DNA of 64,000 bases from an uncultured Flavobacteriaceae bacterium (lineage in GTDB: Bacteria > Bacteroidota > Bacteroidia > Flavobacteriales > Flavobacteriaceae). Made by a program: the position numbers and the translations under genes. The notes beneath the pieces are model-generated. The model was given only the letters and a program-made list of their open reading frames with translations. It ran no database searches and had not been told where the DNA came from. The stretch's first letter is position 1. The number at the start of each line of letters is the position of its first letter. The stretch lies in contig CANNAN010000001.1 in assembly GCA_947502635.1 (NCBI GenBank), positions 558,001-622,000 on the forward strand. Direction: 5' to 3'. This document shows, piece after piece, positions 420 to 56,808 of the stretch.

Positions 420-2555
<2,136 letters not shown>

Positions 2556-2562
2556 AAATATT

Positions 2563-4542
2563 ATGAAGGGATGTAACCTAAAAAAACGAAAAAATGTAAA
2601 GCCATCACTTTTGATGGGGTTACTGTGTGTATTTGTTTTAAATTTATCTTGTGAAAACCAAAATAAGATTGAGCAAGAAATAGTAAATAAAGCCCCTTTA
2701 ATAATTAATAAAAAAGATATTCGTCGTGTTGAACCCATGAATTGGTGGGTAGGTTTTAAATCAAAAACCTTGCAGCTTTTGGTACATCATCCCAATATTT
2801 CACAAAGAACTCCCGAAATTAGTTATCAAGGCGTTTCCATAAAAAAAGTACACCAGGCCGATAGTCCTAATTACCTCTTTATAGATTTAAATATTTCTGA
2901 AATTACAAAGGCAGGTAAATTTAATATTGTTTTTAAAAAAGAAGGAGCAGAAGATTTAGTGCATACATACGAGTTAAAAGCAAGAGAGAAATTGGCAGAA
3001 GACTACATGGGCTTTAACAGTTCTGATGCCATATATTTAATTACTCCAGACCGTTTTGCAAATGGAAACCCAGGAAATGATACGTTTAAAAATTTAAATG
3101 AAAAAACGATTAACAGAAAAAATGGATATGCCAGGCATGGCGGGGATATAGCAGGTATAACAAACCATTTAGATTATATTGAAGATTTGGGTTTTACAGC
3201 GATTTGGCCATGTCCACTTCTAACCAACAATATGCCTCGTGGTTCCTACCATGGTTATGCTATTACAGATTTATATGAAATAGATCCGCGTTTTGGAACG
3301 CTAGATGAATACAAAACTTTAGCCGCTAAAATGGCAGAAAAAGGTATGAAGTTAGTCATGGATCAAGTAGCAAATCATTGTGGCTTAGAGCATTGGTGGA
3401 TGAAGGATTTGCCATTTAAAGATTGGGTAAATTATCAAGAAGTTTATGAAGCACATAGTAACTCTTGGACAAATGAAAAGACCATAAGCTCTAATCATAG
3501 ACGTACCTCCAATCAAGATTTATATGCATCAGAAAAAGATAAAGAAGGTATGGTAAATGGTTGGTTTGTATCTGGAATGCCAGATTTAAATCAACGCAAT
3601 CCATTTATGGCTCAGTACATTATTCAAAATAGTATTTGGTGGATAGAAACTGTTGAGTTGGGAGGTATTCGACAAGATACGTATCCATATCCCGATAAAG
3701 ATTTTATGAGTAACTGGGCAGGAGCTATAATGAACGAATATCCAAATTTTAGTATCGTTGGCGAAGAATGGAGTTATAACCCATTGCTTATTGGATATTG
3801 GCAAGACGGCGCAAATAATAAAGACGGTTACGATTCTAATTTAAAATCGCCTATGGATTTTGCCATGCAACATACCATTGTACAAGCTTTAAATGAAACC
3901 GAATCTTGGGATAAAGGCTTAGTGAAAATGTATGAAGGATTAGCTAACGATTTTCATTATGTGAAACCAAAAGATATTATGATTTTCCCAGATAATCATG
4001 ATATGAGTCGCATTTTTACACAATTAAAAGGCGATATTGTTAATACAAAAATGGCATTAAGTTATTTGCTTACGCTGCCTAGGATTGTACAAATATATTA
4101 TGGAACAGAAATAGTGATGGACGATTTTGAAAAACCTGGAGATCACGGTTTAATACGAACAGATTTTCCTGGTGGCTGGCAAACTGATACGGTTAATGCA
4201 TTTACAGGTGTTGGTTTAACAGAAGTCCAAAGTGAGATGCAATCATATCTAAAAGCACTTTTGAATTTTAGAAAATCCAGTAAAGCAATTCATGAAGGGA
4301 AAACAGTTCATTTTTCGCCTAAAAATGGTGTTTATGTGTTATTTAGGATGACTGAAAATGAAACCGTTGTTCATATTCTGAATAAGAATGAAGAGGCCAT
4401 TGATTTAGACTTAACCAGATTCGAAGAGATTAATTTACAAGGAAAATCGCTTAAAAATATTATTTCTGGAGAAACTGTGACATGGCATGATAATTTGAAG
4501 TTGGAAACCAAGGGAAGCATTATTTTAACTACTAAATTGTAA
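2563..4542 (+). CDS. GH13 cyclomaltodextrinase/neopullulanase-like lipoprotein (SusA-like)
   Basis: The ORF track starts at a GTG at 2521 inside the GH97 gene. The ATG at 2563 is better: it lies 8 bp after the GH97 stop and opens a lipoprotein signal with lipobox 'LNLSC', giving 659 residues. An N-terminal cyclomaltodextrinase domain ('NWWVGFKSKTLQLLVHHP') is followed by the GH13 barrel and a C-terminal beta domain. The catalytic set is visible: nucleophile D372 ('GIRQDTY'), acid E401 ('VGEEW') and D480 ('DNHDMSR'). Family members hydrolyse cyclodextrins, pullulan and short maltodextrins. As a lipoprotein it sits at a membrane; which leaflet cannot be told. The GH13 gene behind it starts 2 bp after its stop. 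Confidence 0.88.
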   Translation: MKGCNLKKRKNVKPSLLMGLLCVFVLNLSCENQNKIEQEIVNKAPLIINKKDIRRVEPMNWWVGFKSKTLQLLVHHPNISQRTPEISYQGVSIKKVHQADSPNYLFIDLNISEITKAGKFNIVFKKEGAEDLVHTYELKAREKLAEDYMGFNSSDAIYLITPDRFANGNPGNDTFKNLNEKTINRKNGYARHGGDIAGITNHLDYIEDLGFTAIWPCPLLTNNMPRGSYHGYAITDLYEIDPRFGTLDEYKTLAAKMAEKGMKLVMDQVANHCGLEHWWMKDLPFKDWVNYQEVYEAHSNSWTNEKTISSNHRRTSNQDLYASEKDKEGMVNGWFVSGMPDLNQRNPFMAQYIIQNSIWWIETVELGGIRQDTYPYPDKDFMSNWAGAIMNEYPNFSIVGEEWSYNPLLIGYWQDGANNKDGYDSNLKSPMDFAMQHTIVQALNETESWDKGLVKMYEGLANDFHYVKPKDIMIFPDNHDMSRIFTQLKGDIVNTKMALSYLLTLPRIVQIYYGTEIVMDDFEKPGDHGLIRTDFPGGWQTDTVNAFTGVGLTEVQSEMQSYLKALLNFRKSSKAIHEGKTVHFSPKNGVYVLFRMTENETVVHILNKNEEAIDLDLTRFEEINLQGKSLKNIISGETVTWHDNLKLETKGSIILTTKL

Positions 4543-49386: not shown

Positions 49387-50517
49387 ATGAAACACAATGA
49401 AACTATAAGAAAAGGGTTTGTATTTAAAAAATATGAAACACCTTACCAATCTCCTTTTGATAAAATTTTTGAAGTTTTCAAAGAACTCATTACACATACG
49501 TCGGGTGATTTTGATGAAGCTATTGACTGGTTGCGGGAATTAGATAAAGAATATAAACTGAGTACAGAGGACTATACCATTGATGATTTTATTGAAGACT
49601 TAAAAAAGAAAGGCTATATAAAAGAAGAAATAGATCCAGATGGTAATGGAGGTGGTATGGCTATTACAGCAAAAACAGAACGCGCTATTCGACAGCAAGC
49701 ACTGGATCATATATTCGGGAAAATTAAACGTAGTGGACAAGGAAACCATAAAAGTAAGAGCCCAGGAATAGGAGATGAGCATACAGGCGATTTTCGAAAT
49801 TATCAATTTGGAGATGCTTTAGATAAAGTGTCCATAACAGAGAGTTTAAAAAATGCCCAAATCAATCATGGTATTGGAGACTTTAGTTTGTCTGAAGAAG
49901 ATTTAGTCGTTGAGGAGACACTCCATAAATCTCAGATGAGTACTGTTTTAATGATTGATATTAGCCATAGTATGATTCTTTATGGAGAAGACCGAATTAC
50001 ACCAGCAAAAAGAGTAGCCATGGCATTAGCTGAGTTGATTACAACACGTTACCCAAAAGATACTTTAGATATTTTAGTGTTTGGAAATGATGCGTGGCAG
50101 ATTGAAATTAAAGATTTGCCTTATTTAAAAGTAGGACCATATCATACTAATACTGTAGCTGGTTTACAATTGGCTATGGATTTACTCCGAAGAAAAAGAA
50201 ATACTAACAAACAAATTTTTATGATTACTGATGGAAAACCAAGCTGTTTGCGTTTACCAGATGGTCAGTACTATAAAAACAGTAATGGATTAGATAAACA
50301 CATTGTAAATAAGTGTTATGCGATGGCACAGCAAGCTAGACGTTTGCATATTCCCATTACAACGTTTATGATTGCACAGGATAGTTATTTGATGCAATTT
50401 GTTAGAGAGTTTACTTATGCTAATCAAGGAAAAGCATTTTATACAGGATTGAAAGGATTGGGTGAAATGATTTTTGAAGATTACGAAACGAATAGGAAAA
50501 AAAGAATTAGAGGGTAA
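49387..50517 (+). CDS. von Willebrand factor A domain protein
   Basis: 376 residues, cytoplasmic. N-terminal 170 residues are charged and helical. The vWA domain (about 185-360) has the MIDAS motif 'DISHS' (DxSxS), a Thr in 'NTVAGL' and 'ITDGKPS'. With the AAA+ ATPase 146 bp downstream it forms a pair like MoxR/vWA or ViaA/RavA, in which the ATPase uses the vWA partner to remodel a target complex. The target is unknown. Confidence 0.88.
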   Translation: MKHNETIRKGFVFKKYETPYQSPFDKIFEVFKELITHTSGDFDEAIDWLRELDKEYKLSTEDYTIDDFIEDLKKKGYIKEEIDPDGNGGGMAITAKTERAIRQQALDHIFGKIKRSGQGNHKSKSPGIGDEHTGDFRNYQFGDALDKVSITESLKNAQINHGIGDFSLSEEDLVVEETLHKSQMSTVLMIDISHSMILYGEDRITPAKRVAMALAELITTRYPKDTLDILVFGNDAWQIEIKDLPYLKVGPYHTNTVAGLQLAMDLLRRKRNTNKQIFMITDGKPSCLRLPDGQYYKNSNGLDKHIVNKCYAMAQQARRLHIPITTFMIAQDSYLMQFVREFTYANQGKAFYTGLKGLGEMIFEDYETNRKKRIRG

Positions 50518-50528
50518 TCCCCTTCCAA

Positions 50529-50545
50529 CCTCCTCGAAAAGGAGG
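50529..50545. repeat. C-rich hairpin repeat (copy 1)
   Basis: cctcc tcgaaaa ggagg, just behind the vWA stop. One of four C-rich hairpins with related flanks in the window. Confidence 0.5.
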
Positions 50546-50630
50546 AACCAATATCCACTATCAGTTTTAAAAAAGAAAATTTTAGTAGAAATAATATAAA
50601 GTTAAATTATAATATACCCATAGCAATTCT

Positions 50631-50658
50631 CTCTCCTTTGGAGAGGGTTAGGGTGAGG
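50631..50658. repeat. C-rich hairpin repeat with 'ggttagggtgagg' tail (copy 2)
   Basis: ctctcc ttt ggagag followed by ggttagggtgagg, ending 5 bp before the AAA+ gene start. Same design as the copies at 63793 and 63866 in opposite orientation or related form. Confidence 0.55.
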
Positions 50659-50663
50659 AAAAA

Positions 50664-52124
50664 ATGAAAAACATAAAAACATTAGGCGACTTAAAAAAGT
50701 CAGGTTACCAATCAAAATCAATTAAAGATGAATTGAGAGAAAACCTCATTCAGAAAATAAAAAATAAAGAAACGACTTTTGAAGGCGTTCATGGTTATGA
50801 AAATACCGTGATTCCTGAGTTGGAACGTGCCATTTTATCACGTCATAACATCAATCTTTTAGGGTTGCGAGGACAGGCAAAAACCCGTTTGGCCCGTTTG
50901 ATGCTAAATTTATTAGACGACTATATTCCTTATGTGGAAGGTTCCGAAATTAACGATGATCCGTTACAACCTATTTCAAGGTTTGCAGTCGAACTGATAA
51001 AAGAAAAAGGAGATGATACGCCTATTTCCTGGTTGCATAACAGTGAACGTTTTGCAGAAAAGCTAGCAACTCCCGACGTTACAGTAGCCGATATTATTGG
51101 GGATGTAGATCCCATTAAAGCTGCTAATCTAAAATTAAGTTATGCTGATGATAGAGTGATTCATTATGGGATGATACCTAGAGCGAATCGCTGTATTTTT
51201 GTAATTAATGAATTACCTGATTTGCAAGCTAGAATCCAAGTAGCGTTATTTAATATTTTGCAAGAAGGTGATATTCAAATTAGAGGTTTTAAATTACGAT
51301 TACCGCTAGATATTCAATTTTTATTTACAGCAAACCCTGAAGATTATACCAATAGAGGGAGTATTGTAACACCTTTAAAAGATCGAATTGGTTCTCAAAT
51401 TTTAACGCATTACCCAGTAGATATCGAAACGGCTCGTTTAATAACAGAACAAGAAGCTAAACTGGTTGAAGGGCAAAAGCAAACTGTTTTGGTACCTGAT
51501 CTAGCTAGAGATTTATTAGAACAGATTGTATTTGAAGCTCGTGAAAATGATTTTATTGATGCCAAAAGTGGTGTCAGTGCTCGATTGAGTATTACCGCCT
51601 TAGAGAATTTGCTAAGTACTGCCGAACGTAGGGCTTTGATATCGGGCGATAAAATTACCATGTTACGTTTAAGCGATTTTGTTGGTATTATTCCATCCAT
51701 TACAGGAAAGGTAGAATTGGTTTATGAAGGCGAGCAGGAGGGGGCAGCTGTTGTTGCTTATAATTTAATAGGTGAAGCTGTTAAGAGTTTATTTGGTGAA
51801 TTTTTTCCTAAGCTTGAAAAACTAAAAAAGCAAGAAGATGAAAGTCCTTATGATGATATTATATCTTGGTTTTTTAATCAAAAAGATGGTTTTGAGATGT
51901 TAGATGATTTGCGTGATAAAGAATATAGAAACTTATTAGATTCTATTAGCCCTCTAGATGATTTGTTAGGCGAATATCAACCTAATTTATCTAAGCCAGA
52001 TAGCTATTTTGTAAAGGAATTTGTGCTTTGGGCCTTGGTAGAATTTAAACAGTTAAGTAAACAACGATTTACAGAGGGTATTCAGTTTAAAGACCCCTAT
52101 GGAAGTTTTATAAGCGGGATTTAG
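50664..52124 (+). CDS. MoxR/Mg-chelatase-like AAA+ ATPase
   Basis: 486 residues. Walker A is 'GLRGQAKTRLARL' (GxxGxxKT). The Walker B place reads 'CIFVINELPDL', the ChlI-like 'NELPDL' variant. Sensor and arginine motifs 'FTANPEDYTNRG' and 'PLKDRIGSQILTHYP' follow, and a helical C-terminal part ends the protein. The group is annotated as magnesium chelatase, but no chlorophyll genes are expected here; it works with the vWA protein upstream. A terminator follows. Confidence 0.88.
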   Translation: MKNIKTLGDLKKSGYQSKSIKDELRENLIQKIKNKETTFEGVHGYENTVIPELERAILSRHNINLLGLRGQAKTRLARLMLNLLDDYIPYVEGSEINDDPLQPISRFAVELIKEKGDDTPISWLHNSERFAEKLATPDVTVADIIGDVDPIKAANLKLSYADDRVIHYGMIPRANRCIFVINELPDLQARIQVALFNILQEGDIQIRGFKLRLPLDIQFLFTANPEDYTNRGSIVTPLKDRIGSQILTHYPVDIETARLITEQEAKLVEGQKQTVLVPDLARDLLEQIVFEARENDFIDAKSGVSARLSITALENLLSTAERRALISGDKITMLRLSDFVGIIPSITGKVELVYEGEQEGAAVVAYNLIGEAVKSLFGEFFPKLEKLKKQEDESPYDDIISWFFNQKDGFEMLDDLRDKEYRNLLDSISPLDDLLGEYQPNLSKPDSYFVKEFVLWALVEFKQLSKQRFTEGIQFKDPYGSFISGI

Positions 52125-52156
52125 TATTTGTTGAAGTTACTACTATTTAAAAAGAT

Positions 52157-52207
52157 TTAAATGCTGTAGGGAATCGTTTGTTTTTCTTGCAGCATTTTTG
52201 CTTTTTT
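52157..52207 (+). terminator. Rho-independent terminator behind the AAA+ gene
   Basis: aaatgctg / cagcattt with a long loop, followed by ttgcttttttata. It lies 34 bp behind the stop and closes the vWA/AAA+ unit. Confidence 0.65.
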
Positions 52208-52395
52208 ATAATTATCAAATATTCAAAAACTTAGGAGCCATTTTTATGAATTCATAATCTATTACCTTCTATTTGTCACATTCAGATTACTTATCATAAT
52301 AGGCCAATTTTACTTGGTTTTCATACTTGAAAGCTTTATTTTTTTTACCAAATGGATGTTTAAATTATCAATAAAAACTAAAAAACAATCTCCAT

Positions 52396-54480
52396 ATGGA
52401 TCAAAATGAAGACAATATTGCAAACAATATCGGGCTTCTTTCATTCGATATTGATAACACATTAATAGATTTTCATACGTACAAAAGTAATTTTCGTAAA
52501 ATATGGGAGAAGTATAGACCAGAAGATGTTTTGCTTACCTATAACACAGGGCGTTTAATCGATGATGTTCTTAATTTAATCAATAAAGGAATTCTGCCAG
52601 AACCAGATTATATAATTTCGGGTGTGGGAACACATATCTATAATTATAATAATAAAAGCGTAGTCAAAGAATTTAATGATGTCCTTGACGAGGGTTGGGA
52701 TCTTAAATCTGTAGAGCAAGTTATTCAAAATATAAACCATCCCATAATTGAGCAGCCTACAAAATTTCAACATGCTTATAAAAGAAGCTATTTTTTCCAT
52801 GATGCAAGCCCCGAACTAATCGCTAGCGTTGAACAGGGTTTTGCCGATGTCAACATGCATATTAATGTGGTCTATTCTGGTGATAAGTTTTTAGATATTC
52901 TTCCAAAGTTTGCCAATAAAGGAAATGCATTGTTGTGGCTGCTTAAAAAATTAGATATTAAATCTAATAAGGTAATGGTAGCAGGAGATAGTGGTAATGA
53001 CTCTGCCATGTTTGATGTAAAAGAAGTGAAAGGTATAGTAGTTGCAAATGCCCATGAAGAACTTTACAGATATACAAAGCACCGACAGGTTTATCATTCG
53101 GAAAAAGAAAAAAGTAATGGTATTATAGAAGGTTTAGTTTATTATGGCGTGTTGCCAGAAGATGCTATAGTTGATACCAATGTTGATCATACGGATGACT
53201 TTTTTATAAAGCAAGAGCTAAGCAACCTGGCATTGGAGAATGATAATGAAAAAGTAGCCTTAATTCTTGAGGGTTATGAAAAAGCGATCGAGGCTTTAAA
53301 AAAAAACATCACACCCCTTGGCTTTTCAGCGTGTTCTATAAAAGATAATGTGGCTCATGGTACCGATGAAAATTATTATAGCGTTTGGGCACGTGATGGA
53401 GCTATAACTGTTATTGGTTCTTTACCATTGGTTCATGATGAAGAAATCCATCAATGTCAACGCCAAACGTTATTAACCTTATTTGAGCATATTTCTCATA
53501 ATGGTCAAATTCCATCCAATGTCCGTATTAAAGATAATGTACCAGATTATTCGGGAGTTGGGGGTATCTGTTCTATTGATAGTGGAATTTGGGTGGTTAT
53601 TGCATTCTACGAATATGTTAATGTTACCAAAGATATTGAGTTTTTAAGAACACATATTTCAGATATTAAAGAAACAATGCGTTGGCTCGGCGCTCATGAT
53701 AGTAATAATGATGCATTATTGGAAATACCAGAAGCAGGAGATTGGACAGATTTATTTGGTAGAAGTTATAACATCCTTTACGATGAAATTCTTTGGTATC
53801 GTGCTAATGTATGTTTTGGTCGTATGATGGAAATGTTAGGCGATCACAAACAAGCGGGCGAGTATATTAGATGGTCTCAAGTTATTAAGAAAGAGATATT
53901 AAATAATTTTTGGCCTTCAACGCAACAGCAATTATTCCAATCGGTTTCTTTTGCTGAAAAACAATTCACATTGGGAGACACCTCCTACTTAATAGCACAA
54001 ACAACACCGTTTGATTTCAGTTGGCGTTGTGATGTTCTAGGAAATGTTCTTGCATTTTTACATGGAACTATTGATTCTGAAAAGGCACATCAAACTTTTA
54101 AATTTATGTTGGGAGTTGGAGTTAACGATCCTTTTCCTGTGGCGAATGTGTATCCTGTAGTAAGTCCTGGTGATCCAGACTGGAGACCTTATTATACTGT
54201 GAATCTTTTAAACTTGCCTAATCACTATCATAATGGAGGTATATGGCCTTTTGTAGGTGGTTTTTGGGTTAAATTCATCAATAAACTAGGACTAAAGGAT
54301 ATTGCTATTGCCGAATTACACAAGTTGGCTTTAATAAATAAAGAAGGCATAAATGTAGAATGGGAGTTTACAGAATGGGCTCACGGAACAACTGGTAAAC
54401 CTATGGGTAAAGCATATCAGGCATGGTCTGCGGCACAGTATATTTCTGCTTGTCATGATTTGAAAATAATAAAAAAATAA
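52396..54480 (+). CDS. Fusion of sucrose-phosphate-phosphatase-like HAD domain and GH100-like (neutral invertase-like) hydrolase
   Basis: 694 residues, no signal peptide. Residues 15 to about 260 are an S6PP-type HAD-IIB domain: 'SFDIDNTLID' (DxDxT), 'LTYNTGR', 'IISGVGTHIY', Lys in 'FANKGNALL' and 'GDSGNDSAM'. Residues about 290-690 are an (alpha/alpha)6 hydrolase resembling cyanobacterial/plant neutral invertases: 'YSVWARDGA', 'ICSIDSGIWVVI', 'WRCDVLGNVLAFL', 'NHYHNGGIWPFVGGFW', 'TEWAHGTTGKPMGKAYQAWS'. A glycogen-debranching (GH63/GH133-like) assignment is the alternative. The start follows 271 bp of gap; the GT gene is 15 bp downstream. Confidence 0.8.
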   Translation: MDQNEDNIANNIGLLSFDIDNTLIDFHTYKSNFRKIWEKYRPEDVLLTYNTGRLIDDVLNLINKGILPEPDYIISGVGTHIYNYNNKSVVKEFNDVLDEGWDLKSVEQVIQNINHPIIEQPTKFQHAYKRSYFFHDASPELIASVEQGFADVNMHINVVYSGDKFLDILPKFANKGNALLWLLKKLDIKSNKVMVAGDSGNDSAMFDVKEVKGIVVANAHEELYRYTKHRQVYHSEKEKSNGIIEGLVYYGVLPEDAIVDTNVDHTDDFFIKQELSNLALENDNEKVALILEGYEKAIEALKKNITPLGFSACSIKDNVAHGTDENYYSVWARDGAITVIGSLPLVHDEEIHQCQRQTLLTLFEHISHNGQIPSNVRIKDNVPDYSGVGGICSIDSGIWVVIAFYEYVNVTKDIEFLRTHISDIKETMRWLGAHDSNNDALLEIPEAGDWTDLFGRSYNILYDEILWYRANVCFGRMMEMLGDHKQAGEYIRWSQVIKKEILNNFWPSTQQQLFQSVSFAEKQFTLGDTSYLIAQTTPFDFSWRCDVLGNVLAFLHGTIDSEKAHQTFKFMLGVGVNDPFPVANVYPVVSPGDPDWRPYYTVNLLNLPNHYHNGGIWPFVGGFWVKFINKLGLKDIAIAELHKLALINKEGINVEWEFTEWAHGTTGKPMGKAYQAWSAAQYISACHDLKIIKK

Positions 54481-54495
54481 CTAAAACTTAAAACT

Positions 54496-55770
54496 ATGAA
54501 ATCTATATTAATGATCTCTTTACATGGCTATGTAGCTGCGAATCCAGAATTAGGAAAACCAGATACAGGAGGACAAGTTGTTTACGTACTGGAACTTGCA
54601 GACCGATTTAGTAGATTGGGAAAAAGAGTAGATTTGGTAACACGGCAGTTTGAAGATCAGCCAGAATATGATTTCGTAGACGAAAATTTTAGCGTATGGC
54701 GAATTCCTTTTGGCGGAAAAGAGTTTATAAGGAAAGAGGACATGCACGACTATTTAAAGAAGTTCGTTACCAATACTTTGGCTGCTATTAAAAAAGAACG
54801 CAAAAAGTACGATATTGTATATTCACATTATTGGGATGCTGGCTGGGCTGGACAAAAAATAGCTGAAGAACTAGGGATTTCTCATGTACATACACCACAT
54901 TCTTTGGGATGGTGGAAACAGCACACTATGGGAAACGATATGGACGAAAAGAAGATGGAAAAAACATATCGATTCAAAGAACGTATCAGAAAAGAATATT
55001 TTGTGTTTCAAATGTGTAACCATGTTATCGCTACTACATTGCCTCAGGTAGACTTGCTAACACAACAATATGATGTATTGCCGCGTAATTGTAACATGAT
55101 TCCTCCTGGGATAGATGAAAATCGTTTTTATCCAGTGCCTACCAAAGAGAACGATAAAATCAGGGCGAAGTACGATATACATCCAACCGATATTTTAGCA
55201 TTGGGAAGAATGGCCCACAACAAAGGTTACGATTTGCTTATTAAATCATTACCAACTGTTTTTGAGTTATGCCAAGAAGCAAGATTGGTAGTGGCTATTG
55301 GGGGAGATTCAGAGCAAGACAAACAAGGTATTGCCAAATTAAAAAAACTAGCAAATGAACTTGGTGTAAAAGACAAAATAAAATGGAAAAACTATATTGC
55401 AGACGAAGATTTAGCGAATGTGTACCGTTCAGCTAATATTTTTGCAATGCCTTCAAGGTATGAACCTTTCGGCATGGTTGCGATCGAAGCTATGGCTTGT
55501 GGAACCCCAAGTATAATAACAGTACATGGTGGTTTATATGATTTAATTGATTTTGGAAATCAGGCTTTATTTGCAGATCCACATAGACCAGTAGAGTTTG
55601 GAGCCATGATGTCCATGCCTCTTTTGTACCCAAATTTAAGAAATGAACTATCCGTTGAAGGTGCTCGTTTTGCACGTCGTAATTTTGGTTGGACTGGTAT
55701 AGCAAAAAGAATGCTTCAGGTCTTTAGAAACTCTATTAATCAACGTACTATGGAATCTAATATTTACTAA
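54496..55770 (+). CDS. GT4 glycosyltransferase, sucrose-phosphate-synthase-like
   Basis: 424 residues, cytoplasmic GT-B. 'NPELGKPDTGGQVVYVLELA' is the signature shared by sucrose-phosphate and sucrose synthases, with 'VHTPHSLGWWK' and 'NMIPPGIDENRF'. The nucleotide-sugar site is 'SRYEPFGMVAIEAMACGTP' (E-x7-E). It would join UDP- or ADP-glucose to fructose 6-phosphate. The fused phosphatase gene lies directly upstream and a fructokinase-like gene 21 bp downstream, supporting sucrose as product. Confidence 0.85.
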   Translation: MKSILMISLHGYVAANPELGKPDTGGQVVYVLELADRFSRLGKRVDLVTRQFEDQPEYDFVDENFSVWRIPFGGKEFIRKEDMHDYLKKFVTNTLAAIKKERKKYDIVYSHYWDAGWAGQKIAEELGISHVHTPHSLGWWKQHTMGNDMDEKKMEKTYRFKERIRKEYFVFQMCNHVIATTLPQVDLLTQQYDVLPRNCNMIPPGIDENRFYPVPTKENDKIRAKYDIHPTDILALGRMAHNKGYDLLIKSLPTVFELCQEARLVVAIGGDSEQDKQGIAKLKKLANELGVKDKIKWKNYIADEDLANVYRSANIFAMPSRYEPFGMVAIEAMACGTPSIITVHGGLYDLIDFGNQALFADPHRPVEFGAMMSMPLLYPNLRNELSVEGARFARRNFGWTGIAKRMLQVFRNSINQRTMESNIY

Positions 55771-55791
55771 AATATTTTTAAAGTAAGGTTT

Positions 55792-56673
55792 ATGTCAGAT
55801 ATAGTTTGCTATGGTGAAGTATTGTGGGATATTTTTCCCAACAAAAAGAAAGTGGGAGGTGCGCCACTAAATGTTGCCATGAGATTGAATTCTTTTAACC
55901 ATAATGCTACTATAATTAGTGCGGTTGGGAAAGATGCTCTTGGAAATGAATTGCTAGCATACCTAGATGAGAATAATGTAAATATAACTTGCGTTGAAAT
56001 TCTTGATGCATACCATACGGGAGAGGTCAATGTTAAGTTGAATGATAAGGGGGCAGCTACTTATGAAATTATGTGCCCGAGAGCTTGGGATAAAATAAGT
56101 TTAACAGAAGCTATTGAAAACACAGTAAAAGAATCGGATGCTTTAGTATTTGGAAGTTTGATTACCAGGGATGAGGTTTCCAGAAAAACACTTTATAAGA
56201 TTCTAAAAGTAGCAAAGTACAAGATTTTCGATGTTAATTTAAGACCTCCACATTATACTTGGGATATTCTTCTTCGACTTATGAAAAAAGCTGATTTTAT
56301 TAAATTTAATGACGATGAACTTTATAAGGTCGGTCATTATTTGGGTTCAAAAAATCGTTCCTTGGAACAAAACCTACATTTTATAGCAGAACAAACCAAT
56401 ACAGAACATATTTGTGTAACAAAGGGAGAACATGGAGCTGTTTTGTTGTACAATAATACACTATATTATAACAGCGGTTATAAAATAAAAGTAGTGGATA
56501 CTGTTGGAGCAGGTGATTCTTTTTTAGGAGCCTTAATTAGTCAATTGTTGAATAATATAAATCCGCAGCAAGCCATTAATTTCGCTTGTGGTGTTGGTGC
56601 ATTGGTTGCACAAAGTGAGGGTGCTAATCCTACATTGGAGCTTTCGGATATTGAAACTTTTATTAATCCATAA
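55792..56673 (+). CDS. PfkB-family carbohydrate kinase, fructokinase-like
   Basis: 293 residues with both ribokinase-family signatures: 'KKVGGAPLNVAMRLNSF' near the N terminus and 'DTVGAGDSFLGALIS' with the catalytic Asp. 'CYGEVLWDIFPNKK' is the usual fructokinase opening. It would phosphorylate fructose freed by the invertase-like domain. Third gene of the sucrose-type operon. Confidence 0.88.
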   Translation: MSDIVCYGEVLWDIFPNKKKVGGAPLNVAMRLNSFNHNATIISAVGKDALGNELLAYLDENNVNITCVEILDAYHTGEVNVKLNDKGAATYEIMCPRAWDKISLTEAIENTVKESDALVFGSLITRDEVSRKTLYKILKVAKYKIFDVNLRPPHYTWDILLRLMKKADFIKFNDDELYKVGHYLGSKNRSLEQNLHFIAEQTNTEHICVTKGEHGAVLLYNNTLYYNSGYKIKVVDTVGAGDSFLGALISQLLNNINPQQAINFACGVGALVAQSEGANPTLELSDIETFINP

Positions 56674-56759
56674 TTTTAGTGTTGATATTGAAATTCGAGA
56701 TTTAAAAAGTATTCATTTAGGTCTAACAAAATTGCTAGTTCAAATAAGAAATGATGTAA

Positions 56760-56776
56760 AATCTATTTCATAGATT
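56760..56776. other. Short perfect hairpin before the GH8 gene
   Basis: aatctat ttc atagatt, a 7-bp stem with a 3-base loop, 33 bp before the GH8 start and 86 bp behind the kinase stop. Weak terminator or leader element; no T-run. Confidence 0.35.
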
Positions 56777-56808
56777 ATTATCGTATATACATAAAAAAAT
56801 ACCTACTT

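Follow-up and report, generated by a model that had tools for sequence, protein, structure and literature searches.

A sucrose-phosphatase-like domain fused to a GH100-like glycosidase in a probable sucrose turnover unit of Bacteroidota and other bacteria

Most of what is known about sucrose synthesis comes from plants and cyanobacteria. A locus in the genome of an uncultured Flavobacteriaceae bacterium raises the question of why a single polypeptide should resemble a sucrose-phosphate phosphatase (SPP) in its first half and an invertase in its second, and what the genes around it would make and break. The locus lies in a window of 64,000 nucleotides (the whole stretch of DNA analysed; contig CANNAN010000001.1, positions 558,001 to 622,000), where three closely packed ORFs on the plus strand fill positions 52396-56673. 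The spacers are 15 bases between the fusion gene and the GT4 gene and 21 bases between the GT4 gene and the kinase gene. The coordinates and the description of this three-gene segment in an earlier note on the sequence agree with the ORFs and Pfam domains found here. The features are as follows.

52125-52395, no strand: upstream intergenic region, presumed promoter region (sequence only)
52396-54480, plus strand: fusion gene, 694 aa, one uninterrupted frame
52429-53154, plus strand: N-terminal part of the fusion, SPP-like HAD domain, aa ~11-253
53236-54477, plus strand: C-terminal part of the fusion, GH100-like (alpha/alpha)6 glycosidase, aa ~281-694
54496-55770, plus strand: GT4 glycosyltransferase, SPS-like, 424 aa (Q27, K80, H135, R163, R238, E323)
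55792-56673, plus strand: PfkB sugar kinase, probable fructokinase, optional member of the unit, 293 aa

Promoter and terminator scans of the operon gave results at or below chance. The Bacteroidota -33/-7 pattern had no match in 52125-52395, and the sigma-70-like matches upstream of the fusion gene were at chance level, with no significant promoter motif.

Phosphatase, glycosyltransferase and kinase

By its matches, the HAD domain appears to be sucrose-phosphate-phosphatase-like. Pfam S6PP (PF05116) matches aa 14-251 at 5.9e-62 (209.9 bits, cut-off 20.3), the top PDB sequence match is the Synechocystis SPP 1s2o (6.6e-23), and the predicted model matches the same structure with a Z of 24.7. 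The HAD catalytic residues (DxD, K and GDxxND) were inspected in an alignment of 31 diverse homologues of the fusion family: D20, K175 and D202 are present in 31 of 31, D18 in 30 and D198 in 29. The SPP equivalog TIGR01485 gave 162 bits, below its cut-off of 184, whereas the mannosyl-phosphoglycerate phosphatase models gave only 41.

The second ORF carries GT4 domains in Pfam and matches TeSPS (2.7e-41) and HoSPS (2.9e-37) in the PDB. In TeSPS, H158 and E331 are catalytic, R178 is assigned to the phosphate and Q51 to the acceptor (PMC7264703). These residues are retained as H135, E323, R163 and Q27 in 20 of 20 sequences, as is K80, a residue of sugar-phosphate binding; the position of Gln51 is Met in MshA and Gln (Q27) in the window GT4. 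TeSPS R253, located next to the nucleotide phosphate, is replaced by N in all 20. The SPS model TIGR02472 gave 204 bits for the window GT4 against a cut-off of 576, but the proven TeSPS reaches just 145 bits. The cut-off therefore does not define SPS, and the low score is not evidence against SPS identity. The MshA model TIGR03449 gave 222 bits (cut-off 462), and an assignment as MshA from this family-level score was ruled out since the proven TeSPS behaves alike. In a phylogenetic tree the GT4s form one clade, on long branches, flanked by two groups, each with a proven SPS among its members. Because the clade stands apart on a long branch, we infer the donor sugar, and GDP-mannose would be possible.

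The third ORF belongs to PfkB (Pfam 5.8e-44, 151 bits), and its top PDB match is 2qhp, annotated as a fructokinase (2e-49). The fructokinase equivalog NF006957 gave 106 bits (cut-off 450) and the ribokinase model 107. The SPP-like, SPS-like and fructokinase-like calls of the earlier note stand up to these tests; the HAD domain and the GT4 fall outside the mannosylglycerate and glucosylglycerol enzymes, a grouping which that note had named as counting against its proposal.

The glycosidase half and its stand-alone relatives

Six-hairpin glycosidase families of Pfam match aa ~315-685, GDE_C at 2e-15 and GH100 at 2e-13. For the fusion protein, GH100 (PF12899) gave 52.5 bits (cut-off 23.6) and GDE_C 59.4 (cut-off 21). 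Across the fusion family GH100 is the top Pfam match (7.4e-20), and likewise for the stand-alone relatives. When a profile built from 26 family members was run on 177,635 PDB sequences, it matched four GH100 invertase sequences (InvA, InvB and AtCINV1) at 9e-11 to 7e-9 and, beyond GH100, only one rhamnosidase, marginally (4e-4).

Asp188 and Glu414 are the catalytic residues of GH100 (PMC6995568). D452 and E660 of the fusion align with them, and both are invariant in the 31 homologues, as is the YHNGGxWP motif of the pocket; D452 is probably the catalytic acid and E660 the base. The invertase Arg430 (GK(E/Q)AR segment) is absent, judging from a 3-residue gap in the PDB alignments. Because this segment is deleted we do not file the glycosidase as GH100; it probably works like a GH100 enzyme without being a proper member. 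A full-length AlphaFold model of the fusion (31 sequences, mean pLDDT 74.5), in which the active-site loops of the glycosidase are of low confidence, has InvA, InvB and AtNIN2 among its structural matches (Z 22-24, identity 18-20%). Other (alpha/alpha)6 enzymes match at similar Z, and many tie, so that Z does not decide the family. The hydrolase had been called GH100-like, with structure prediction and family assignment proposed as a check. That call survives in its looser sense, by the PDB invertase matches and the structural match to InvA, InvB and AtNIN2, but not as GH100 proper, given the missing Arg430 and the equal match to GDE_C.

Stand-alone homologues in other Bacteroidota share 24-30% identity with the glycosidase half. 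An MFS transporter adjoins the homologue in 16 of 21 loci and PfkB kinases do so in 7 of 21; a TonB receptor is frequently present too, and the sucrose/proton symporter model TIGR01301 recognises one of these transporters at 1.4e-29. The gene content suggests that such loci serve to take up and cleave sucrose. Locus L097 (7271-13701, minus strand), which holds a PfkB kinase, a GH100-like hydrolase, a sucrose-symporter-like MFS and a TonB receptor, is a probable Bacteroidota sucrose uptake locus. At L096 (7028-9187, minus strand), a stand-alone glycosidase relative and a C-terminal PfkB kinase form one 719-aa protein, a second independent fusion tying this glycosidase to sugar phosphorylation.

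Distribution and synteny of the fusion

A search for relatives in contigs of ~85,000 species genomes yielded 182, from which the best 80 loci were kept. All of these best 80 are full-length fusions with 55-89% identity, and their hosts are Flavobacteriaceae, Saprospiraceae/Lewinella and Rhodothermia of the Bacteroidota, as well as SAR324 and Chloroflexota, so that marine flavobacteria share the fusion with far more distant bacteria. Since the frame is uninterrupted and the same full-length fusion stands at 80 independent loci, chance, frameshift and misassembly are ruled out as its source; the fusion is real and old. In one homologue (L054, genome G274) a TGA close to the C-terminal end cuts the protein short at 635 aa, a possible decay or sequencing error.

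The GT4 gene lies directly downstream of the fusion in 78 of the best 80 loci. Of the other two, L174 is cut off by the contig edge; in L168, the only fusion locus with room yet without GT4, a ROK-family kinase (2426-3166) takes its place. A PfkB gene comes next in 34 of the 80 and is missing in 46. The conserved core is thus the fusion and the GT4, and the kinase is optional. The earlier note had described the three genes as one compact operon and proposed a search for the same fusion and synteny; the search bears out the fusion and its GT4 and leaves the kinase outside the core. In 18 fusion genomes tested for a canonical SPS-SPP, the sole matches were the fusion and its GT4 (18/18). Transporters, DUF1800 and GH2 genes occur near distant fusion loci, with no common theme among these neighbours. 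Within the literature searched, of which coverage was partial, we found no description of an SPP fused to a GH100-like glycosidase, in keeping with the earlier note, to whose author no described enzyme with this domain pair was known.

The VWA and MoxR-like AAA genes directly upstream of the unit in the window (49387-52124) also precede it in many flavobacteria; this pair is conserved across Flavobacteriaceae even without the operon. None of the 11 sister species searched within the genus has the fusion or the GT4. The flanking genes are retained there, and wherever the junction is clear the AAA gene directly adjoins the GH8 gene with ~70-90 bases between, which marks a precise presence or absence of ~4.6 kb (52125-56808) between this genome and the 11. 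Such a pattern might suggest a recent horizontal arrival, but the G+C content of the operon equals that of its neighbours and other genera carry it at the same locus; loss within the genus is therefore as likely as gain.

Canonical SPS-SPP genes occur in other Bacteroidota, and in 8 of 14 loci a homologue of the window kinase lies directly upstream of them. Among these 14, SPS-SPP is followed by a sucrose synthase in four loci by similarity (one Pfam-confirmed) or by a GH32-like protein (two Pfam-confirmed). As a cleaving enzyme follows SPS-SPP, each arrangement appears to pair synthesis with cleavage; in the family of the window the cleaving enzyme would appear to be joined to SPP instead. 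A non-flavobacterial family of the Bacteroidota has operons (L211, L213, L215 and L217) in which SPS-SPP stands together with a PfkB kinase and a gene resembling sucrose synthase. At L208 (7389-8900) and L212 (7288-8754) a ~500-aa protein with a weak GH32/GH43 match stands right after SPS-SPP and is possibly an unrecognised sucrose-cleaving enzyme.

Proposed sucrose turnover and comparison with known systems

We consider it reasonably probable that the SPS, SPP and invertase-like activities constitute one cytosolic sucrose turnover unit, with the cleaving activity fused to that of the final synthetic step. The sucrose reading has good though indirect support, from the relationships and conserved residues of the HAD domain and the GT4, the invertases matched by the glycosidase profile, the transporters and kinases beside its stand-alone relatives, the kinase homologues upstream of canonical SPS-SPP genes, and the 18 fusion genomes with no further SPS-SPP match. 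Against it count the missing Arg430, the GDE_C score, the SPP equivalog score below its cut-off, the separate GT4 clade and the 46 loci that lack the kinase. The fusion, its synteny, its catalytic residues and its nearest structural relatives are observed directly, and the substrates, the donor, the osmolyte role and the regulation are deduced. The GT4 would transfer glucose from UDP-glucose, the presumed donor, to fructose 6-phosphate to yield sucrose 6-phosphate, from which the HAD domain would remove the phosphate to release sucrose. The glycosidase domain would then hydrolyse sucrose, giving glucose and fructose, by the inverting mechanism of neutral invertases, in which D452 would be the acid and E660 the base, and the PfkB kinase, where present, would return fructose to fructose 6-phosphate. 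Placing the last synthetic and the first degradative step on one polypeptide would give both the same expression. All steps running at once would waste UDP-glucose and ATP, and one would therefore expect the glycosidase to have a high Km or to be under control. The sucrose level would then depend on how the affinities differ or on such control, for example when the salt concentration changes.

A more specific proposal, which we put forward only tentatively, is that reciprocal control of its SPP and invertase-like domains makes the fusion a regulated bifunctional switch, and that the glycosidase founds a family beside GH100. Effectors such as ionic strength, sucrose or fructose 6-phosphate would then set the sucrose pool, much as PFK-2/FBPase-2 sets fructose 2,6-bisphosphate. 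It is far more doubtful that the glycosidase no longer cleaves and acts as a sucrose sensor or scaffold controlling the phosphatase. The lost counterpart of Arg430 would fit such a role, and a making and a breaking enzyme in one chain invite a regulatory one, but the invariance of both catalytic acids and the YHNGGxWP pocket in the 31 homologues would be unusual for a dead enzyme.

Two other readings change the substrate. The mannosylfructose operon of Agrobacterium comprises a GT4, a HAD phosphatase and a fructokinase, and the window unit might likewise make and break a fructose-containing disaccharide other than sucrose, with the glycosidase cleaving that product. Q27, K80 and R163 suit fructose 6-phosphate with any donor, the GT4 clade is distinct, and the N in place of TeSPS R253 is found throughout its 20 sequences. 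We nevertheless regard this as unlikely, because the sole strong PDB relatives of the glycosidase are hydrolases that attack sucrose from the glucose side, and its stand-alone relatives adjoin sucrose-symporter-like transporters. That the glycosidase acts on another alpha-glucoside or a short alpha-glucan in the manner of GH133 or GH63, so that the fusion ties the making of sucrose to glycogen or some other solute, seems to us about as unlikely. GDE_C at 57-59 bits lies slightly above GH100 for the window protein, and the many (alpha/alpha)6 glucosidases of similar Z point the same way. The debranching model TIGR01561, however, gave 27 bits (cut-off 364) and the GH63-type mannosyl/glucosylglycerate hydrolase model NF047898 19 bits (cut-off 550), neither a debranching enzyme nor a GH63 turned up in the PDB profile search at E 0.01, and GH100 leads the Pfam matches of the family and of the stand-alone relatives. 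The debranching or trehalase-type family that the earlier note had weighed against its own proposal thus does not firmly claim the domain.

For the sucrose turnover unit that we favour, the domain architecture, of which the literature searched gave no description, appears new and the pathway is known. The arrangement is widespread among heterotrophic bacteria and joins the enzyme domain that would complete sucrose synthesis to one that probably splits sucrose. Should the activities be borne out, it would offer a compact and testable case of one protein making and breaking the same solute, and would correct the likely automatic names (debranching enzyme, plain HAD phosphatase).

The bidomainal SPS-SPP of bacteria and cyanobacteria shares with the unit both expected synthetic activities, a homologous HAD domain and, in other Bacteroidota, the adjoining kinase homologue. 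In SPS-SPP the phosphatase is joined to the synthase, whereas in the window its partner is a hydrolase, and a separate, distantly related GT4 would be the synthase. The GH100 invertases (Anabaena InvA/InvB and Arabidopsis CINV1) have the fold, the catalytic Asp and Glu and the YHNGGxWP motif in common with the window domain, which at 18-20% identity lacks the Arg430 segment and is fused to a phosphatase. The sps-spp-fruK-ams sucrose operon of Methylomicrobium brings together synthesis, dephosphorylation, fructose recycling and sucrose cleavage, but leaves cleavage to a separate GH13 amylosucrase rather than to a GH100-like domain fused to the phosphatase. Making and breaking on one polypeptide under reciprocal control is known from 6-phosphofructo-2-kinase/fructose-2,6-bisphosphatase and from Rel/SpoT, proteins that resemble the window fusion in this respect and are unrelated to it.
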